The notes beneath the pieces were generated by a model. It did no database searches. It saw nothing but the letters and a program-made list of their open reading frames with translations, and was not told the DNA's origin. This document shows, piece after piece, positions 38,002 through 61,656 of a stretch of DNA of 64,000 nucleotides. The DNA lies in NCBI GenBank assembly GCA_016787705.1, contig JAEUTP010000010.1, positions 248,001 through 312,000 of the forward strand, given 5' to 3'. This DNA comes from Bacteroidia bacterium (GTDB lineage: Bacteria; Bacteroidota; Bacteroidia; B-17B0; Aurantibacillaceae). Each line of letters opens with the position of its first letter. Position 1 is the stretch's first letter. The position numbers were made by a program, and so were the translations under genes.

Positions 38002-40413
38002 CTATTTTTTTCGGGTACCGTAGCCGGTGCCATAACCAGTACCATAGCCTCCACCATAACCAGTACCATAGCCTGAACCATACCCATAGCCGTAACCATA
38101 ACCCTGGTAATAATAACGCTTACCTAAACCAGTAACACCATTAAGAACCAATAATACATTTTCAAGATTATTTACTTCAACAATATTTTCAAGGAAAGTG
38201 ATAACGCGTTTAGAGCTTGATTTTGTATTTAGAACAAATATGGATGCATCTACCTGTTGAATTAAGTAAATTGAATCGGATAACAAGCCGGCGGGTGGTG
38301 TATCTATGATCACAAAATCATAATCTACTTTAGCCCTGTCAATAATTTCACGCAGTTTTTGAGACAATACAAATTCAGACGGATTTGGAGGGATTGGCCC
38401 AGAGTAAATACAATTTAGATTTGGAATTGGTGTTGAAGAAATAATTTCTTCATACGTATTTAGGCCCGATATGCAGGTAGTTAAGCCTATTGTCTGCGGT
38501 GGTAATCCAAAACGTTTAAAAATTCTTGGCTTATGCAAATCCAGTTCAATTAAAACTGTTTTTTTACCACTACGTGCAAATATCGTAGCCAGATTAACAC
38601 TTGTAAATGTTTTTCCTTCGCCAGGTAAAAACGAGGTAATTAAATATGTTTTTGCGCCAACTCCAATATTTGCATACTGAAGATTTGTTCGAAGGTTTCG
38701 AAAGGATTCAGATATTAGGGAGTTAGGCTTTTGTTCAACAATTATTCCGTCATTATTTTCATCTTTTACATAAGGTAAAACGCCTATTAAAGGTAAATCT
38801 GTAAGTTCCTTTAAATGCGCTACTGATTTTATTTTTGAATAAAAAAACGCTCGTAAAAGAATAATAAGTAAAGAAACCAAAAGACCCGCAGATAAAAATG
38901 ATTTTTGAATGGCTGGCTTGTCAGGCGATACAACACCAACATTACGGGGCGATTCAACGATTTTCATATCGGGCACAATACTCGCTTTTGCGATTTTGGT
39001 ATTTGCTTTCTTTTCTAATAAAAAATTATATAAATGTTCGCTTACCGCCGATTTACGCTGAATGTTAAGAATATCGCGTTGTTTACCGGGGATTAATTTT
39101 GCTTCGTTAATATATGACAAAATCTCTTTGTTAAGTCCTTCAACCTGCTGGTTAACTGCCTTACGAGTGTTAGTTATATATATTAAAAGATCTTGCTTTG
39201 TTTTTTTGATGCTCGATTTAAGATCTGCAACAATTGGATTGGTTTCTTTTGCAATATTATAAACCTTATTTAATTCGATTTGTTTTAGATATAGGTCGTT
39301 TACAGCTGTACTTAGAAAGCCTGATTTTTCAAATACAAAAATGTTGGGTGGTAAAAATTGTGGATCCTTATCTTCAATAATGTAGTTTTCAAGATCATTT
39401 AATGCTTTTAATTCTAATTGTAATTGTGATTTTTGTCCATCATAGCTTCCTATCTTAGTTAAGAAATCATTTTGTTCCCATTCAAGGTCAATAATTGATT
39501 TTCTTTCTTTATAATCCTGCATTGTATCTTCAATGCTCTTTAATGAATAAGAAATTTCATTTAACTGGCGGTCTATATAAGAAATAGTTCTTTCGTTAAG
39601 CTCAAACTTAGATTTTAATTTGCTTGATGCATAAACACTATTTAGTGTGTCAAGTATAAGTATAGCTCTTTCAGGAATAATGTCCGTTAAAGAAAGAATT
39701 AATATGTTCGTGTAATCAGGGTTCTCAATACTTAAATTACCCTGTATATTCGAAATCAGGTATTCTTTGCTGTGTATGGCAAACTGGTAAAAAATCTCCT
39801 TAAAAGATTCAATTTTTTTATCAGTAAATGTCAGGTTTCTGTTTACAGTAATTCCCAAATCAACATCAATAAGCCGTTCTCCAAATTTTCCTTTTTTTAC
39901 TTGTTTAATTCCATCTTGTTCATAGCTTATCTCATAACTATTGTAATCCAGAATTTTAAGGTCAAATATTTGCTCATAAAATCCAGGGTTAACAGAATTT
40001 ACTACAATATCTACCGGCACATTTTTAAACTGCTCTGTAGTTCTGATTTTACCAACTATGTAATATGAAACTTGCAGGTCGGGCAGCAGTTTATCTACTA
40101 CCTGACTCGACATATCGTAAGATTGTATAATACGTTGTTCATTCAAATTATCTACATAAGAGCCGTAAGAATAAAAGCTGGCATCGTTTAATACATTATT
40201 TTGATAATATGTATCATTAACCTTAAGTAAAAACTGTGTAGATGCCTGGTAAATGTTAGTTAATCGATACACATAAAATGTACCCATGGCATAAAAAATA
40301 GGCAAAATAGCAATAGGTATCCACCAATTGGTTTTTATTATTCGAAAAAGGAGATTTAAATCTTTTTGGGAAACAATCGCCTGCTTTTTAGTATTTGGTG
40401 TATTTGTAGACAC
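38002..40413 (-). CDS. wzc: Polysaccharide co-polymerase/tyrosine autokinase (Wzc-like)
   Basis: This 803-residue protein has an N-terminal Wzz domain between two membrane segments (near residue 30 and near 510), with long coiled-coil regions between about 260 and 460, as in Wzc. The cytoplasmic kinase has Walker A SFLPGEGKTFTSVNLA, Walker A' VLIELDLHKPRI and Walker B FVIIDTPPAGLL. The C-terminus is an unusual Gly/Tyr run with twelve tyrosines after residue 766, the presumed autophosphorylation cluster. The start is GTG; a promoter-like TATATTTG lies 17 bp upstream. It is the first gene of the minus-strand locus and controls chain length or export. Confidence 0.93.
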   Translation of the reverse strand: MSTNTPNTKKQAIVSQKDLNLLFRIIKTNWWIPIAILPIFYAMGTFYVYRLTNIYQASTQFLLKVNDTYYQNNVLNDASFYSYGSYVDNLNEQRIIQSYDMSSQVVDKLLPDLQVSYYIVGKIRTTEQFKNVPVDIVVNSVNPGFYEQIFDLKILDYNSYEISYEQDGIKQVKKGKFGERLIDVDLGITVNRNLTFTDKKIESFKEIFYQFAIHSKEYLISNIQGNLSIENPDYTNILILSLTDIIPERAILILDTLNSVYASSKLKSKFELNERTISYIDRQLNEISYSLKSIEDTMQDYKERKSIIDLEWEQNDFLTKIGSYDGQKSQLQLELKALNDLENYIIEDKDPQFLPPNIFVFEKSGFLSTAVNDLYLKQIELNKVYNIAKETNPIVADLKSSIKKTKQDLLIYITNTRKAVNQQVEGLNKEILSYINEAKLIPGKQRDILNIQRKSAVSEHLYNFLLEKKANTKIAKASIVPDMKIVESPRNVGVVSPDKPAIQKSFLSAGLLVSLLIILLRAFFYSKIKSVAHLKELTDLPLIGVLPYVKDENNDGIIVEQKPNSLISESFRNLRTNLQYANIGVGAKTYLITSFLPGEGKTFTSVNLATIFARSGKKTVLIELDLHKPRIFKRFGLPPQTIGLTTCISGLNTYEEIISSTPIPNLNCIYSGPIPPNPSEFVLSQKLREIIDRAKVDYDFVIIDTPPAGLLSDSIYLIQQVDASIFVLNTKSSSKRVITFLENIVEVNNLENVLLVLNGVTGLGKRYYYQGYGYGYGYGSGYGTGYGGGYGTGYGTGYGTRKK
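38014..38103 (-). repeat. Short tandem repeat coding for Gly/Tyr tail of Wzc
   Basis: These 90 bp encode residues 771-800, where glycine alternates with tyrosine, serine or threonine. The DNA repeats a GGnTAyGGn(A/G)C(T)-like unit of 6-12 bp. Such runs can change length by replication slippage, altering tyrosine number in frame without inactivating the gene. Confidence 0.7.
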
Positions 40414-40729: not shown

Positions 40730-41278
40730 ATGAGGGCTGTATTTAAACAAAATGCCTTTATTAAGTTTGTTTTTACAGCCGGTCTTATTTACCTTTTATT
40801 ATATTTTATTTATCAATTTGTAATAAAAAGATATACTTACTACGATCAAAAATTTATTGGCTCAATTATTAATGCAGTAGATTTTTTATTACAAACCTTT
40901 GGCTATAAAACATTTACCGTTTTGCAAGATCGTGATTATCAGGTTATTGGAATAGACGGATCAAATGGCGTTTGGATAGGCTCAAATTGTAATGCTATAA
41001 CTTTATTTTCACTTTTTACTGTTTTTATCATTGCTTATCCGGGCAAGCTAAAAGATAAACTATGGTATATTCCCACAGGTATAATTATTATTCATATTTT
41101 AAATATTTTACGTGTTATAGCCTTGGTATTAATAGCTTATCATTATCCACAATATTTAAATTTTAATCATACCTACACCTTTACTTTTTTGGTGTATTCA
41201 TTCATCTTTTTATTATGGATGGTTTGGGTAAATAAGTTTTCCGGAAAATTAAATCAATCAAAACATGAAAATAAGTAA
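40730..41278 (+). CDS. xrtF: Exosortase XrtF-like membrane transpeptidase
   Basis: This 182-residue protein has about five transmembrane segments. The putative catalytic residues of the exosortase/archaeosortase family are in order: Cys87 in GSNCNAITLF, Arg128 in HILNILRVIAL and His138 in IAYHYP. These lie at the outer membrane face. XrtF enzymes in Flavobacteriia are thought to remove sorting tails such as that of the neighbouring PID-CTERM protein. Genes for the candidate substrate (13 bp upstream) and the associated membrane protein (14 bp overlap) support the function. Confidence 0.88.
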   Translation: MRAVFKQNAFIKFVFTAGLIYLLLYFIYQFVIKRYTYYDQKFIGSIINAVDFLLQTFGYKTFTVLQDRDYQVIGIDGSNGVWIGSNCNAITLFSLFTVFIIAYPGKLKDKLWYIPTGIIIIHILNILRVIALVLIAYHYPQYLNFNHTYTFTFLVYSFIFLLWMVWVNKFSGKLNQSKHENK

Positions 41279-41735
41279 GCTCATTCTATTCCTTATTTTA
41301 TTTGGTTGCCTGGGTTATTTTCGAGAATTTTTTTTTGTGAATCTCAATAATATCATGTTCCAAAAATATTATAACCATACCGATCTACCAATTCCCTGGG
41401 TAATGCACATATTTGAATCTTTTTCATATAAAACGCTTTATTTTTCAAAATATATTTACACTGCCATTTGGGTTGGCATCTTCTTTTTTGTAAACTATAT
41501 GGCAATAAAAACACTTTGTACACAAAAAATATTAGTAAAATTTCTTATCTATTCTTATGTCATTTTATTATCTTTAGCCGCAATAGCTATGCTTTACGGA
41601 TATTTTATCAACGGAAGGTTACAGGATGATGAATATACAATTAGCAGATGGTTATTAGGAATTGTACAATCACCAATTATTTGTTTAATATTAATTGCCT
41701 CTGAAAACCTATATCCAAAATCTACAACATCATGA
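41265..41735 (+). CDS. Exosortase F system-associated membrane protein
   Basis: This 156-residue protein has four to five hydrophobic segments. A conserved early stretch, [19 protein letters not shown], and later [19 protein letters not shown] match what I know of the small integral membrane protein that always accompanies XrtF. Its role is unknown; it may hold the substrate or the enzyme. It starts inside the 3' end of xrtF and its stop overlaps glyA by 4 bp. Confidence 0.82.
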
Positions 41736-56578: not shown

Positions 56579-58426
56579 ATGAAAAAGCTGTTTTCTGTTT
56601 TAAAATATGCCAGAAATTACAAAGGTTATCTTACCGCTAATGTGACCTTTAACATACTTTTCGCATTATTTAACGCTGTAAGCTTAACACTTGCCATGCC
56701 TTTTTTAAAATTATTATTTGAAGACTCTAATTTGATAGAGAGCGGGCTTGTTTTAATGAAGGGGAAACCCCAATTTGCTTTAAATGCCGATTACATTAAA
56801 GATGTTTCTAACTACTACATTACCGGCCTTATTGTAACCCAGGGCGGAAAAATGAAGGCGCTTATCATTATTTGTGTGATCATTTTTGTAATGACATTTT
56901 TCAAGAATTTATTCCGTTACCTGGCCATGTTCTTTATAGCGCCCATTCGTAATGGTGTTGTACGTGATCTTAGAAATAAAATGTACAAAAAATCCTTAGA
57001 TCTGCCTTTGAGTTATTACAGCGAAGAAAAAAAGGGGGATCTTATGAGCCGCATGACATCAGATGTTCAGGAAATTGAATGGAGTATTATGCAAACCCTT
57101 GAAATGATCTTCAGAGAGCCTTTAACTGTCATTCTTTTATTTAGCTTAATGATCTTAATTAGTGCAAAACTCACCGTTTACATTTTGTGCTTATTGCCCA
57201 TAGCAGCTTTATTTATTGTTATTCTTGGAAAAAGTCTTAAAAATTCTGCCCGAAAAGGTAAAGACACTTTAGGTGTTTTAATAAGCGTAATTGAAGAAAC
57301 ACTGGGAAGCTTAAAAGTTATTAAAGCATTTAATGCCATGAAGCCCATGCAAAAAAAGTTTGAAGAAATAAATCAAACGTATTATAAACAATCGGTAAAT
57401 GTTTACCGTAAAACAGATCTTAGCTCTCCTTTAACCGAAGTTATTGTTACCGGAATATTAATGTTTATTTTATTTATTGGCGGCAGCATGGTGTTTAATG
57501 GCGAACTAACAGGCCCACTGTTCTTAACCTATTTTATTTTAGCCTCTCAATTAATTCCTCCTATTAAACAGCTTACTACTTCTTACAGTAATATTCAAAA
57601 AGGTGTAGCCAGCGAAGAACGCATTGATAAGATCTTATTAGCAGATGATGTGATAGTAGATAAACCAAATGCAAAAACAATTTCTGATTTTACTAAAGAG
57701 ATCGAATACAAAAATGTTTGGTTTGCTTACCATAAAGGTGATGATGGCTATGTGTTACGCGATATTAATTTAAAAATCGCCAAAGGAAAAACTGTTGCCC
57801 TTGTTGGCCAAAGTGGAAGCGGTAAAACAACCCTGGCAGATATGCTGCCACGCTTTTACGAAAGCGATAAGGGCGATTTGTTGATTGATGGTACAGACAT
57901 AAAAGAACTAAGCACAGAAAGTGTTCGTAAACATATAGGCGTTGTTACACAGGAAAGCATTTTGTTTAACGATACAGTTAAGAACAACATCATTTTCGGA
58001 ATGCAAAATATTAGTGATGCAGATGTTATGGAAGCCGCAAAAATTGCCAATGCCCATGATTTTATTATGCAGTTACCAAACGGTTACGATACTATTATTG
58101 GCGATCGTGGTGGTAAATTAAGCGGTGGTCAGCGCCAGCGTTTAAGTATTGCGCGCGCCATTTTAAAAAATCCTTCTATTTTAATTTTAGATGAAGCCAC
58201 CTCAGCATTAGATACCGAAAGCGAAAAACTGGTACAGGAAGCATTAACAAATTTAATGAAGAACCGTACCAGTGTTGTTATTGCACATAGATTGTCTACC
58301 ATTTCCAATGCCGATGAAATTATCGTTATGCACAAAGGTGAAATTATTGAGCGTGGAAATCATTCACAGTTACTGGCTTTAGATGGTACCTATAAAAAAC
58401 TATGCGATATGCAGAGCTTTAAATAA
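56579..58426 (+). CDS. ABC exporter (MsbA-like, fused permease-ATPase)
   Basis: This 615-residue protein has six transmembrane segments followed by an ATPase: Walker A LVGQSGSGKTTLADML, signature LSGGQRQRLSIARAIL and Walker B ILILDEATSALD. The MsbA group flips lipid A or other lipids. It is followed after 17 bp by a large repeat protein gene, so the two may form an envelope-export operon. The substrate is inferred from family. Confidence 0.92.
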   Translation: MKKLFSVLKYARNYKGYLTANVTFNILFALFNAVSLTLAMPFLKLLFEDSNLIESGLVLMKGKPQFALNADYIKDVSNYYITGLIVTQGGKMKALIIICVIIFVMTFFKNLFRYLAMFFIAPIRNGVVRDLRNKMYKKSLDLPLSYYSEEKKGDLMSRMTSDVQEIEWSIMQTLEMIFREPLTVILLFSLMILISAKLTVYILCLLPIAALFIVILGKSLKNSARKGKDTLGVLISVIEETLGSLKVIKAFNAMKPMQKKFEEINQTYYKQSVNVYRKTDLSSPLTEVIVTGILMFILFIGGSMVFNGELTGPLFLTYFILASQLIPPIKQLTTSYSNIQKGVASEERIDKILLADDVIVDKPNAKTISDFTKEIEYKNVWFAYHKGDDGYVLRDINLKIAKGKTVALVGQSGSGKTTLADMLPRFYESDKGDLLIDGTDIKELSTESVRKHIGVVTQESILFNDTVKNNIIFGMQNISDADVMEAAKIANAHDFIMQLPNGYDTIIGDRGGKLSGGQRQRLSIARAILKNPSILILDEATSALDTESEKLVQEALTNLMKNRTSVVIAHRLSTISNADEIIVMHKGEIIERGNHSQLLALDGTYKKLCDMQSFK

Positions 58427-58443: not shown

Positions 58444-61400
58444 ATGCGGTTAACCCGGCTAAAATATTTTCTTGCACCCCTTCTTTTTCTTTGTACTTCT
58501 TTTAATTTAATTTCCCAATCAGATACAATTAAAAAAAAGAACCTCTCATTGGATCTTGGTATTACACGTAGCCGCAATATCAACCTTTGGCCGTTCTTTA
58601 AAAAATATAAGAACGCTGAAAAGAAAGAACTACAGATCATATATCCTTTGTTCTCCAAACGAAGAAATTACCGCAATCACACAAAACATTTTCAGCTCTT
58701 ACCTTTTTATATTAGTGATAGCAGTAGTAAAGGAATAAGCAACCGTTTTCTTTCCTTGTATTATCCTTCTGTTTTACGAACACACAAACAAAGCGATTCT
58801 TCCGGCACATACAGTTCATTTAATTTTTTAGAGCTGGCGCCTCATATTTCTCTATTAGGCCTTAACCGTTCGCCCAATGGCCTTTCGGTTGAAAATAATA
58901 TCTTTTTCTTTATATGGTATCGTAAAGATATTTTGCAAGCCAAAACACGTTTGGTTGTTTTTCCGACCTACTGGTATTTTGCAAATAAACGTGATACAAC
59001 CAATTTATTTTTCCCTTTTTACCTTAAACGAAAAACAGAAACTTCCAAATATCTCAACGTAGCATTTTTATACAATCAAAAATATACTTTAACAGAAAGG
59101 AAAAATTCTCTTTTCCCAATATGGTGGCACAAGGTAAATTATGTTGGTAACGATACCATTAAAAAAGAACTTGTTATACCTTTTTATTGGAGCAAAAAGA
59201 GCTCAACCGAAAACCATAAGCTGATCTTTCCTTTAATTTACAATGTAAAAACGCAGCAACGCCAATCCTTTTCCTTCTTTCCTTTATTTTCTTACGGACA
59301 TCGTTACGATTCAAACAGTAATTATTTTGCTGTTACACCTTTATTCTGGCATGCAAAGAACAAAGATGGAATAAGAAATGTTCTGTTTCCTCTATATTGG
59401 CATTTTAAAGATTACTATCACAATGATACGGTTGAACGACAGGTAATCTTTCCTTTTGTGTGGACTCACAGAAGCAAAAATGCTATTAATACAACCATCT
59501 TTCCGTTCTATTATAATTATCAAAATAAATACCGTTCATCGCACACAGTTCTTCCTTTCTTTTCAACATATGAAGAATTTAAAACAGGATATGGTTACAA
59601 ATATATTTTTCCCTTTTATTGGAAAACACGTAACAGATATGAGTCAAAAGAAGCATTTTTTCCGGTTTATTTTAGCAAAACAAATTATCACGGAGGCGAT
59701 ACATCTTTCAATAAATACATTTTTCCATTATTCTTTTCGGGCCGAACGCGTACTAAAAATTACCAGATCTTCTTTCCAATAATTTATCGTTTCAAAAGTC
59801 CTGAGTATCATTCATTCACCTTCTTCCCTCTTTTTGCCAGCGGGAGTTCTACAGATTCTATAAAAAGACTTTTAAGTATTACACCGCTTTTTTGGCGCGT
59901 TAAAACTCAAACAGGGTTAACCAAAGTGTTATTTCTTTATTGGAACAACAAGCATTACAATGCAAATGATACAACTTATCATCATGGCTTTTTTCCTTTT
60001 TATTGGTCGGGCAAAAACAAAACAAAACATAATACTGTTGTTTTTCCTTTTGTATTTAAAGTAAATAATAAAAAACGTGAATCTTTAACTGTATTTCCTT
60101 TGTTTTCTTACGGGCATACAAAAGATTCGACAAGAAGTTATGTTGGCATTACACCTTTATTTTACCGCATTAAAGGTCAATACAGTTTAACGCATATTTT
60201 ATTCCCGGTTTATTGGAACAGTAAATTTTACAGATCCAGTGATACGGTTCGTACCGAAGTAATTTTTCCGTTTGTATGGTTAAGTAGTCGTAAAGACAGA
60301 ACTACAAAAGTTGTATTTCCCTTTATGTTTTCACACCAGGACAAATATAAAGAATCGTTTACCGTGTTTCCATTATTTTCTTATGGCAGGCATTACGACT
60401 CTACCAAAAGTCATTTAATGGTAACACCTTTTTACTGGCATTTCGAAAAAAGAAACAGCATAAGCAATGTTGTATTTCTTTTATACTGGCAAAAAACAAA
60501 ATATTATAATAACGATACCTCAAGGTCGTTGGTATTATTTCCCTTATTGTGGCATCAAAAAAGCAGGGAAGAAACAAGTACTTTTCTTTACCCAATCATT
60601 TACAGTATAAAAAATAAAGAAAGAAAAAGCTTTACGTTTTTACCTCTTTTTTCTTTTGGAAAAACGATCGACTCAACAAAACACCTTGTAATTACACCCT
60701 TCTTTTTGCATTTTAAAAACAAGCACAATGTAAAAACAACCCTGTTTCCGGTATATTGGTCACGAAAATATTATTTAAGAGATGATACCATTAAGAGAAG
60801 TGTGTTCTTTCCATTGTATTGGGTAAACCATTCCAACAACAAAAAAACAGACGTTTTCTTTCCTTTGATCTGGAAATTCAAGAACAATACTTACAGCTCA
60901 TTTACATTTTTTCCGCTATGCTCATTTGGACATGGAACAAATAGAAAAAAACATTTAATGATCACTCCTTTATTTGGAAAATTTGATTCGGATAAAGGAT
61001 CAAATGCATTTTTATTTCCTGTATTTAATTACAGAAGAAGTGGTGATGAAAAACATTATTCTGCCTTCCTATTTTTATTTATGCGTACCACAAAACCCGG
61101 CTATTCTAAAACAGCTGTGTTTTGGCCAATTATTGAGCAGTTAAAAGATAAAGAAAAACGTAAATTCAGGATCGCACCAATTGTATGGTTCTCAAAAACA
61201 GATAGCAGTAATATGCTTTCGGTGCAACCGCTTTTTTACTCGAATAAAACAAAACAGAAAAACACTTTTATCTTAAGCGCCTTTTTGTATAAACGTGAAA
61301 GGATCTTTGAAAGATCGGTATCTAATAGCTTTTTATTTAGATTGTATTATCAAAAGAATTACACGAATGGTGATTTTGAAAAAAGGTTTTTACATTTGGT

Positions 61401-61656
61401 AATTGCTAATATTAAAGTGGATGGCCACCGCGAAAAAAGTGTTTTACCTTTCTTTCATATTGTAAAGGAAGAAAATGGCGACAGGTCTGTATCTTATTTC
61501 TTTGGAATGTATAACCGCTTTAAGGAATATAAGCCCGAAATAAAAGATTTTTATGAAGAAGAACGTTTACTGTGGTTCATTCGCTTAAGATCGAATTACA
61601 AGCAGCTTAAAAGCGAGGGAAAAGACACATTTGTAAGAAAGAGGAAAAAACGCTAA
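58444..61656 (+). CDS. Large secreted protein with 90-91-residue beta-rich repeats
   Basis: This 1070-residue protein has a signal peptide (KYFLAPLLFLCTSFNLISQ). From about residue 190 to 860 it repeats a unit with five short aromatic strands such as FFPLFSYG, VTPLFW, LFPVYW, VIFPFVW and VVFPFMF. Anchoring prolines lie at 280, 371, 462, 552, 643, 734 and 824, so units are 90-91 residues apart. DST-type and DT-type charged turns recur. I do not recognise a family. It could be a beta-barrel or a long beta-groove carrying lipid. It follows an MsbA-like gene in the same direction. Confidence 0.85.
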   Translation: MRLTRLKYFLAPLLFLCTSFNLISQSDTIKKKNLSLDLGITRSRNINLWPFFKKYKNAEKKELQIIYPLFSKRRNYRNHTKHFQLLPFYISDSSSKGISNRFLSLYYPSVLRTHKQSDSSGTYSSFNFLELAPHISLLGLNRSPNGLSVENNIFFFIWYRKDILQAKTRLVVFPTYWYFANKRDTTNLFFPFYLKRKTETSKYLNVAFLYNQKYTLTERKNSLFPIWWHKVNYVGNDTIKKELVIPFYWSKKSSTENHKLIFPLIYNVKTQQRQSFSFFPLFSYGHRYDSNSNYFAVTPLFWHAKNKDGIRNVLFPLYWHFKDYYHNDTVERQVIFPFVWTHRSKNAINTTIFPFYYNYQNKYRSSHTVLPFFSTYEEFKTGYGYKYIFPFYWKTRNRYESKEAFFPVYFSKTNYHGGDTSFNKYIFPLFFSGRTRTKNYQIFFPIIYRFKSPEYHSFTFFPLFASGSSTDSIKRLLSITPLFWRVKTQTGLTKVLFLYWNNKHYNANDTTYHHGFFPFYWSGKNKTKHNTVVFPFVFKVNNKKRESLTVFPLFSYGHTKDSTRSYVGITPLFYRIKGQYSLTHILFPVYWNSKFYRSSDTVRTEVIFPFVWLSSRKDRTTKVVFPFMFSHQDKYKESFTVFPLFSYGRHYDSTKSHLMVTPFYWHFEKRNSISNVVFLLYWQKTKYYNNDTSRSLVLFPLLWHQKSREETSTFLYPIIYSIKNKERKSFTFLPLFSFGKTIDSTKHLVITPFFLHFKNKHNVKTTLFPVYWSRKYYLRDDTIKRSVFFPLYWVNHSNNKKTDVFFPLIWKFKNNTYSSFTFFPLCSFGHGTNRKKHLMITPLFGKFDSDKGSNAFLFPVFNYRRSGDEKHYSAFLFLFMRTTKPGYSKTAVFWPIIEQLKDKEKRKFRIAPIVWFSKTDSSNMLSVQPLFYSNKTKQKNTFILSAFLYKRERIFERSVSNSFLFRLYYQKNYTNGDFEKRFLHLVIANIKVDGHREKSVLPFFHIVKEENGDRSVSYFFGMYNRFKEYKPEIKDFYEEERLLWFIRLRSNYKQLKSEGKDTFVRKRKKR
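59266..61023 (+). repeat. Seven ~273-bp tandem repeats inside the large secreted protein gene
   Basis: The reading frame repeats a block of about 273 bp (91 codons; two units have 90). Identity between units is visible at the protein level, strongest around FPLFSYG and FPVYW, and lower at the DNA level. It probably arose by internal duplications and later diverged. Confidence 0.75.

Follow-up and report, generated by a model that had tools for sequence, protein, structure and literature searches.

The analysed DNA, referred to here as the window, is a 64,000-nucleotide stretch from a Bacteroidia genome. An open reading frame on its plus strand (58444-61656) encodes a protein of 1070 aa, as the preliminary description had stated, and follows the gene of an ABC exporter (Table 1). 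The adjacency to an MsbA-like exporter noted in that description is real, while its value as a functional hint found no support, because the link is not conserved. Sister genomes have the exporter gene (88-91% identical) and rsmI (95-97% identical) as immediate neighbours, with a clean empty site where the repeat gene would be. The repeat gene follows the ABC gene in the three carriers of the genus; elsewhere the neighbours are what we take from their sequences to be thiolase, tryptophan synthase, mnmE or WG-repeat genes. Since close relatives keep the exporter without the repeat gene and other genes stand beside it elsewhere, the exporter does not constitute evidence of function and is an incidental neighbour, not a conserved partner.

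Table 1. Features of the repeat gene and its upstream neighbour in the window
Feature	Position	Strand	Basis and remarks
ABC exporter (ABC_membrane + ABC_tran, Pfam)	56579..58426	+	17 bases upstream of the repeat gene
Sec signal peptide, residues 1-24	58444..58515	+	hydrophobic N-terminus; predicted cleavage before Gln25 (Bacteroidetes Q-rule)
N-terminal cap, residues 25-185	58516..58998	+	kept in nearly all N-terminally complete homologues; irregular modules inside
Diverged repeat unit 0, residues 186-274	58999..59265	+	spacings 17-17-21-17-17
Repeat unit 1, residues 275-365, 91 aa, five putative hairpin modules	59266..59538	+	periodicity, element spacing
Repeat unit 2, residues 366-456, 91 aa	59539..59811	+	periodicity, element spacing
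Repeat unit 3, residues 457-546, 90 aa	59812..60081	+	periodicity, element spacing
Repeat unit 4, residues 547-637, 91 aa	60082..60354	+	periodicity, spacing; modelled jointly with unit 5
Repeat unit 5, residues 638-728, 91 aa	60355..60627	+	periodicity, spacing; modelled jointly with unit 4
Repeat unit 6, residues 729-818, 90 aa	60628..60897	+	periodicity, element spacing
C-terminal cap, residues 819-1070	60898..61653	+	decayed modules, LA_1737_Cterm-like region 869-961, conserved block, basic tail
Stop codon of the repeat gene	61654-61656	+	

The predicted signal peptide ends in ..FNLISQ, followed by SDT, and Gln stands at the same place (..SQ or ..AQ) in most homologues with an intact N-terminus. 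This fits the Q-rule described for Bacteroidetes type I signal peptidase substrates (PMC10653852). No lipobox was found in the protein. Export is thus supported, with the signal peptide as the sole evidence of location.

BLOSUM autocorrelation of the protein peaked at lag 91 (z 17) and at the multiples 181 and 272 of this period; as these peaks far exceed those of shuffled sequence, the 91-residue periodicity is not due to chance. A shorter period of 17 residues was detected as well. Six regular units are arranged head-to-tail between residues 275 and 818, flanked by a diverged unit (186-274) and a decayed unit (819-909), in agreement with the seven or eight units of 90-91 residues proposed earlier, and all seven prolines of the FPLFSYG block lie exactly at the positions given then (280, 371, 462, 552, 643, 734 and 824). 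The five aromatic strands per unit of the preliminary description correspond to five 'xVxFPLYWx' elements with spacings 19-17-21-17-17; what it missed is the elementary module, a 17-, 19- or 21-residue 'xVLF-P-LYW-polar turn' element that continues through both caps. Since about 54 copies of this element, five per unit, run along the whole protein, the 91-residue unit reads as five smaller modules duplicated as one block. The N-terminal cap carries the motif 'SLDLGITRxxNINLWPxxKKYK...DSSSKG...FLELAPHIS...NNxFFF', and the C-terminal cap a conserved 'YYEEERxFWFIRLRSNYxxLKxxG' block followed by the basic tail. At the DNA level the repeats have decayed while the protein pattern persists, and dN/dS relative to the nearest relative, locus L002 of a Bacteroidetes MAG, is about 0.10, with synonymous sites near saturation. 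This implies that the protein pattern is selected and that the gene is real and under purifying selection.

About 20 relatives of up to 1830 aa are scattered over the Bacteroidia. Homologues were present in 4 of 87 genomes in a whole-genome search of the same order, in 13 of 395 genomes of the class sample (the window's own genome included) and in 9 of 64 genomes of one other family, whereas searches of phage, plasmid and viral sequences found no relatives. The caps and the module pattern are retained across distant families, and the number of modules between the caps varies among homologues. Two homologues, in G023 (L019:10077-14788) and G012 (L002:9584-11170), are split by frameshifts, in G012 together with an assembly gap; these interruptions could be sequencing errors or real decay. 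The window protein had no Pfam match at E <= 1, no PHROGs match and no significant match to a solved structure, the best being one mitoribosomal chain (E 0.02), which we took as a chance hit. Its match to the NCBIfam profile NF047486 (LA_1737_Cterm, named from Leptospira interrogans) reached 19.9 bits over residues 869-961, below the curated cut-off of 60 bits. Concordantly with the earlier statement that no family was recognised, the protein therefore falls into no curated family.

The same profile matched 5 of 16 homologues, in several of them in the C-terminal region and always below the cut-off, the highest score, 37 bits (E 3e-9), being that of L059, where the alignment covers profile positions 7-155 of 158; in one homologue it also matched the repeats and not only the C-terminal region. 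A genome search with NF047486 missed G416, although hmmscan gives the protein of that genome 37 bits, so the genome tallies from this search are uninformative. A literature search for LA_1737 found no useful paper and no function for the family. Distant kinship to the LA_1737 family is likely on these profile matches, and we claim no membership. Altogether, the repeat family is almost undescribed and patchy in distribution, and its length changes by gain and loss of modules.

Proline spacings between 15 and 25 residues, scored with equal weight for 17, 18 and 19, were overwhelmingly odd (537 of 584, with 47 even). Odd spacing in steps of two fits a β-hairpin with an even turn in which the prolines face each other. 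Charge anti-correlation within the turn, computed after subtraction of the module-class means, was strongest where the two offsets x and y add up to the spacing. At this proline-opposite register z was -4.3 for spacing 17 and -3.1 for spacing 21, and a pooled repeat gave -4.0; for spacing 19 the best register was two off (z -3.4, versus -1.8 at the symmetric register). The open ends of successive strands gave no pairing signal (z +0.5 and -0.3). Because the spacings are overwhelmingly odd and covariation peaks with the prolines opposed across the polar turn, each module probably forms a β-hairpin with the polar turn at its tip, an assignment made indirectly, from covariation. Across the proline, the symmetric register gave a charge signal of z -2.4, weak given the number of registers tried, which suggests that the chain may fold back there too. 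Direct-coupling contacts across the proline were also considered; they largely vanished after module-class correction and left a weak charge signal.

Around the proline, positions -3 to +3 are hydrophobic on both faces. The hydrophobic span comprises 7-8 residues with Trp at +3, and charge starts at about +/-6 with a basic excess. K+R make up 16% of the residues versus 6.7% for D+E, the net charge of the window protein is about +100, and it is positive in all tabulated homologues. Hydrophobic runs of 6-9 residues occur 2.96 times per 100 aa, compared to 0.39 in LptD, 0.28 in FhuA, 0.18 in TamA and 0.16 in TamB. Strands with two hydrophobic faces are at odds both with an ordinary porin-like barrel and with a TamB/RBG groove. 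The protein resembles the outer-membrane barrels LptD, FhuA and TamA in antiparallel hairpins and in aromatics near the strand ends, and differs from them in having 8-16 times more short fully hydrophobic runs, strands that do not alternate between hydrophobic and polar residues as in classical barrels, and odd element numbers.

Two homologues that are 91.5% identical differ by a single clean 55-residue indel of three modules, and between fixed anchors the module counts are 42, 52, 62, 56, 80 and 83, the last two belonging to sisters. An even strand number, which would have pointed to barrel closure, fitted the first four counts and was broken by the pair 83/80. A classical outer-membrane barrel has an even number of alternately oriented strands, whereas the sisters differ by an odd number if one module equals one strand. 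In an up-and-down sheet with one strand per module, five modules per unit would invert every second unit, and odd insertions would invert everything downstream. The simplest view of these counts is that all modules have the same orientation or that the two rims are equivalent. A conventional form of the very large barrel envisaged in the preliminary description is accordingly disfavoured.

Structure prediction gave a pLDDT of 27 for the full-length protein with a three-row alignment. The AlphaFold model of units 4 and 5 (mean pLDDT 53) was all β with short turns where predicted; some strands were continuous through the proline and others were broken there. Foldseek found no significant match for this two-unit model (best E 0.012), the leading matches being outer-membrane barrels, including the best one, and lipid-binding β sheets, including apoB and MTP. 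Following this weak lead, the repeat protein is like the β-belt of apoB in being a long β ribbon with lipid-binding potential; in the apoB belt, however, the sheet is amphipathic and surrounds a core of lipid (PMC12419007), and the match was not significant.

We propose, with a probability of roughly 0.4, that the protein is an exported envelope component whose modular hairpins form a ribbon or superhelical rod, hydrophobic and aromatic along the spine and basic at the tips, and which serves as an adjustable scaffold or coat. In each 17/19/21-residue module the tip would be a polar, usually basic turn of two-residue type and the base a hydrophobic aromatic 'VLF-P-LYW' core. The proline would connect one module to the next, and the conserved caps would enclose the chain, in which every 91-residue duplication unit holds five modules. 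Since any number of modules, odd numbers included, can be gained or lost, the modules are expected to point the same way, and stacking of such hairpins would yield a ribbon or superhelical rod. Hydrophobic aromatic residues would then form an unbroken strip along the spine, which coiling or lipid would bury, and positive charges would line the edge, where the basic tips may attach to lipid head groups or to anionic polymers of the envelope. In the periplasm or at the cell surface, the assembly might serve as a scaffold or coat of adjustable length. MORN and choline-binding (CW) repeats are likewise tandem β-hairpin modules of about 20 residues in which any number is allowed. This resemblance concerns only how such repeats work, as no Pfam match was obtained (E <= 1) and the repeat protein differs by its xVLFPLYW motif, its five-module super-unit and its Bacteroidota export signal. 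Against the ribbon or rod, strands running through the proline, as in parts of the low-confidence two-unit model, would favour a sheet of long strands.

Such a sheet is the main rival and, although somewhat unlikely, has to be taken seriously: a giant outer-membrane β-sheet of about 55-95 long strands, in the form of a closed barrel or a flattened one, in which the prolines would lie at the mid-plane, aromatic residues would form a belt at either level and charged turns would occupy both rims. Odd spacing would put all prolines on one face of it, the length of the hydrophobic span, the Trp at position +3 and the onset of charge at +6 suit an outer-membrane core, the AlphaFold model contains 14-16-residue strands linked by short turns, and the best, non-significant Foldseek match is an outer-membrane barrel. 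On the other hand, with five strands per unit, nearly identical units would alternate in orientation although the membrane is asymmetric, a three-strand indel separates sisters, the open ends lack a pairing signal, the strands are not amphipathic as they are in LptD, FhuA and TamA, and the C-terminus has a basic tail and no recognisable outer-membrane signal. Because both faces are hydrophobic, the lumen of such a barrel would have to hold lipid or collapse to a double layer. The resulting membrane-embedded β wall, with lipid on both faces, mid-plane prolines and charged rims, would amount to a super-barrel of 55-95 strands, either filled with lipid or collapsed, that grows hairpin by hairpin, which we consider unlikely; to our knowledge, this structural class is known from no envelope.

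Slightly less probable still is a parallel β-solenoid of the curli- or RTX-like type, in which each module would make one coil of a surface fibre. Modules of 17-21 residues have a normal coil length and a solenoid would tolerate any module number, but charges on the two sides of the polar turn covary in an antiparallel register, no in-register parallel charge-avoidance signal was seen, and length steps of two residues suit hairpins better. We also doubt the TamB-like lipid groove suggested in the preliminary description. RBG/TamB/LptA-type grooves are likewise long repeat-built β proteins, RBG domains share the five β-strands per repeat, and a TamB/VPS13-like lipid conduit would suit an exported protein whose length tracks unit number. 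The RBG/TamB groove is defined by a hydrophobic inner and a hydrophilic outer face, a five-strand meander plus a helix or loop that crosses the groove, and a unit of at least 150 residues (PMC7613979), whereas the unit here has 91 residues with a longest regular-unit spacing of 21, lacks a sixth element that would cross the groove and has no outer face of hydrophilic character. Moreover, the aromatic content is 21% versus 5% in TamB, and TamB, AsmA and RBG models all gave no match. Finally, a gene that is in decay, or is accessory and does little, and is retained by chance in few genomes would explain the patchy occurrence in the order, the absence from sisters with 88-91% identical flanks and the interrupted, possibly mis-sequenced frames of two relatives, yet is very improbable given the dN/dS of the gene, the caps and pattern kept across distant families and the intact copy in the window.

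The preliminary description thus holds in its outline of a large exported all-β repeat protein, for which signal peptide, repeat anatomy and the lack of a curated family speak. The hairpin ribbon or rod proposed here would be an all-β modular architecture that looks unlike both the canonical barrel and the lipid groove, and the family offers a testable sequence code of odd 17/19/21 spacing, FPLYW spine and basic tips. Large exported repeat proteins missed by family databases are a blind spot of envelope biology, and in this case scattered Bacteroidota proteins are tied, through a sub-threshold match, to an orphan family named from Leptospira. A single solved structure would reveal how a hairpin that is hydrophobic on both faces is accommodated outside the cytoplasm.

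Several further observations concern the surroundings of the homologues and of the window gene. In three genomes of one family a WG-repeat-like protein is encoded immediately upstream of the homologue (L056:4883-6007, L057:9946-11067 and L058:4359-5576) and is possibly its partner in that family. Beside an N-terminal fragment of the repeat protein, L021:1538-7605 (G001) contains about 7 tandem paralogous proteins of roughly 240-270 aa that start with 'MKxKTFxLKIxxPCxxxWDEM...CxxCxKxVxDFS'. A small exported protein with near-perfect 17-residue repeats 'TIQNSSYSTVGYIKSDG' is encoded at L055:4419-4829 (G219), two genes from a giant homologue. Within the window, a long run of glycan genes on the minus strand (2430-40413) was read from the sequences as a surface polysaccharide cluster with glycosyltransferases, aminotransferases, an ABC-2 exporter pair, a HisF/HisH-like set and a tyrosine-kinase/Wzc-like protein (38002-40413). 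It is adjoined by an exosortase-like protein (40730-41735, Pfam Exosortase_EpsH) that overlaps a small membrane protein with no Pfam match, and the two are possibly an exosortase and its partner.
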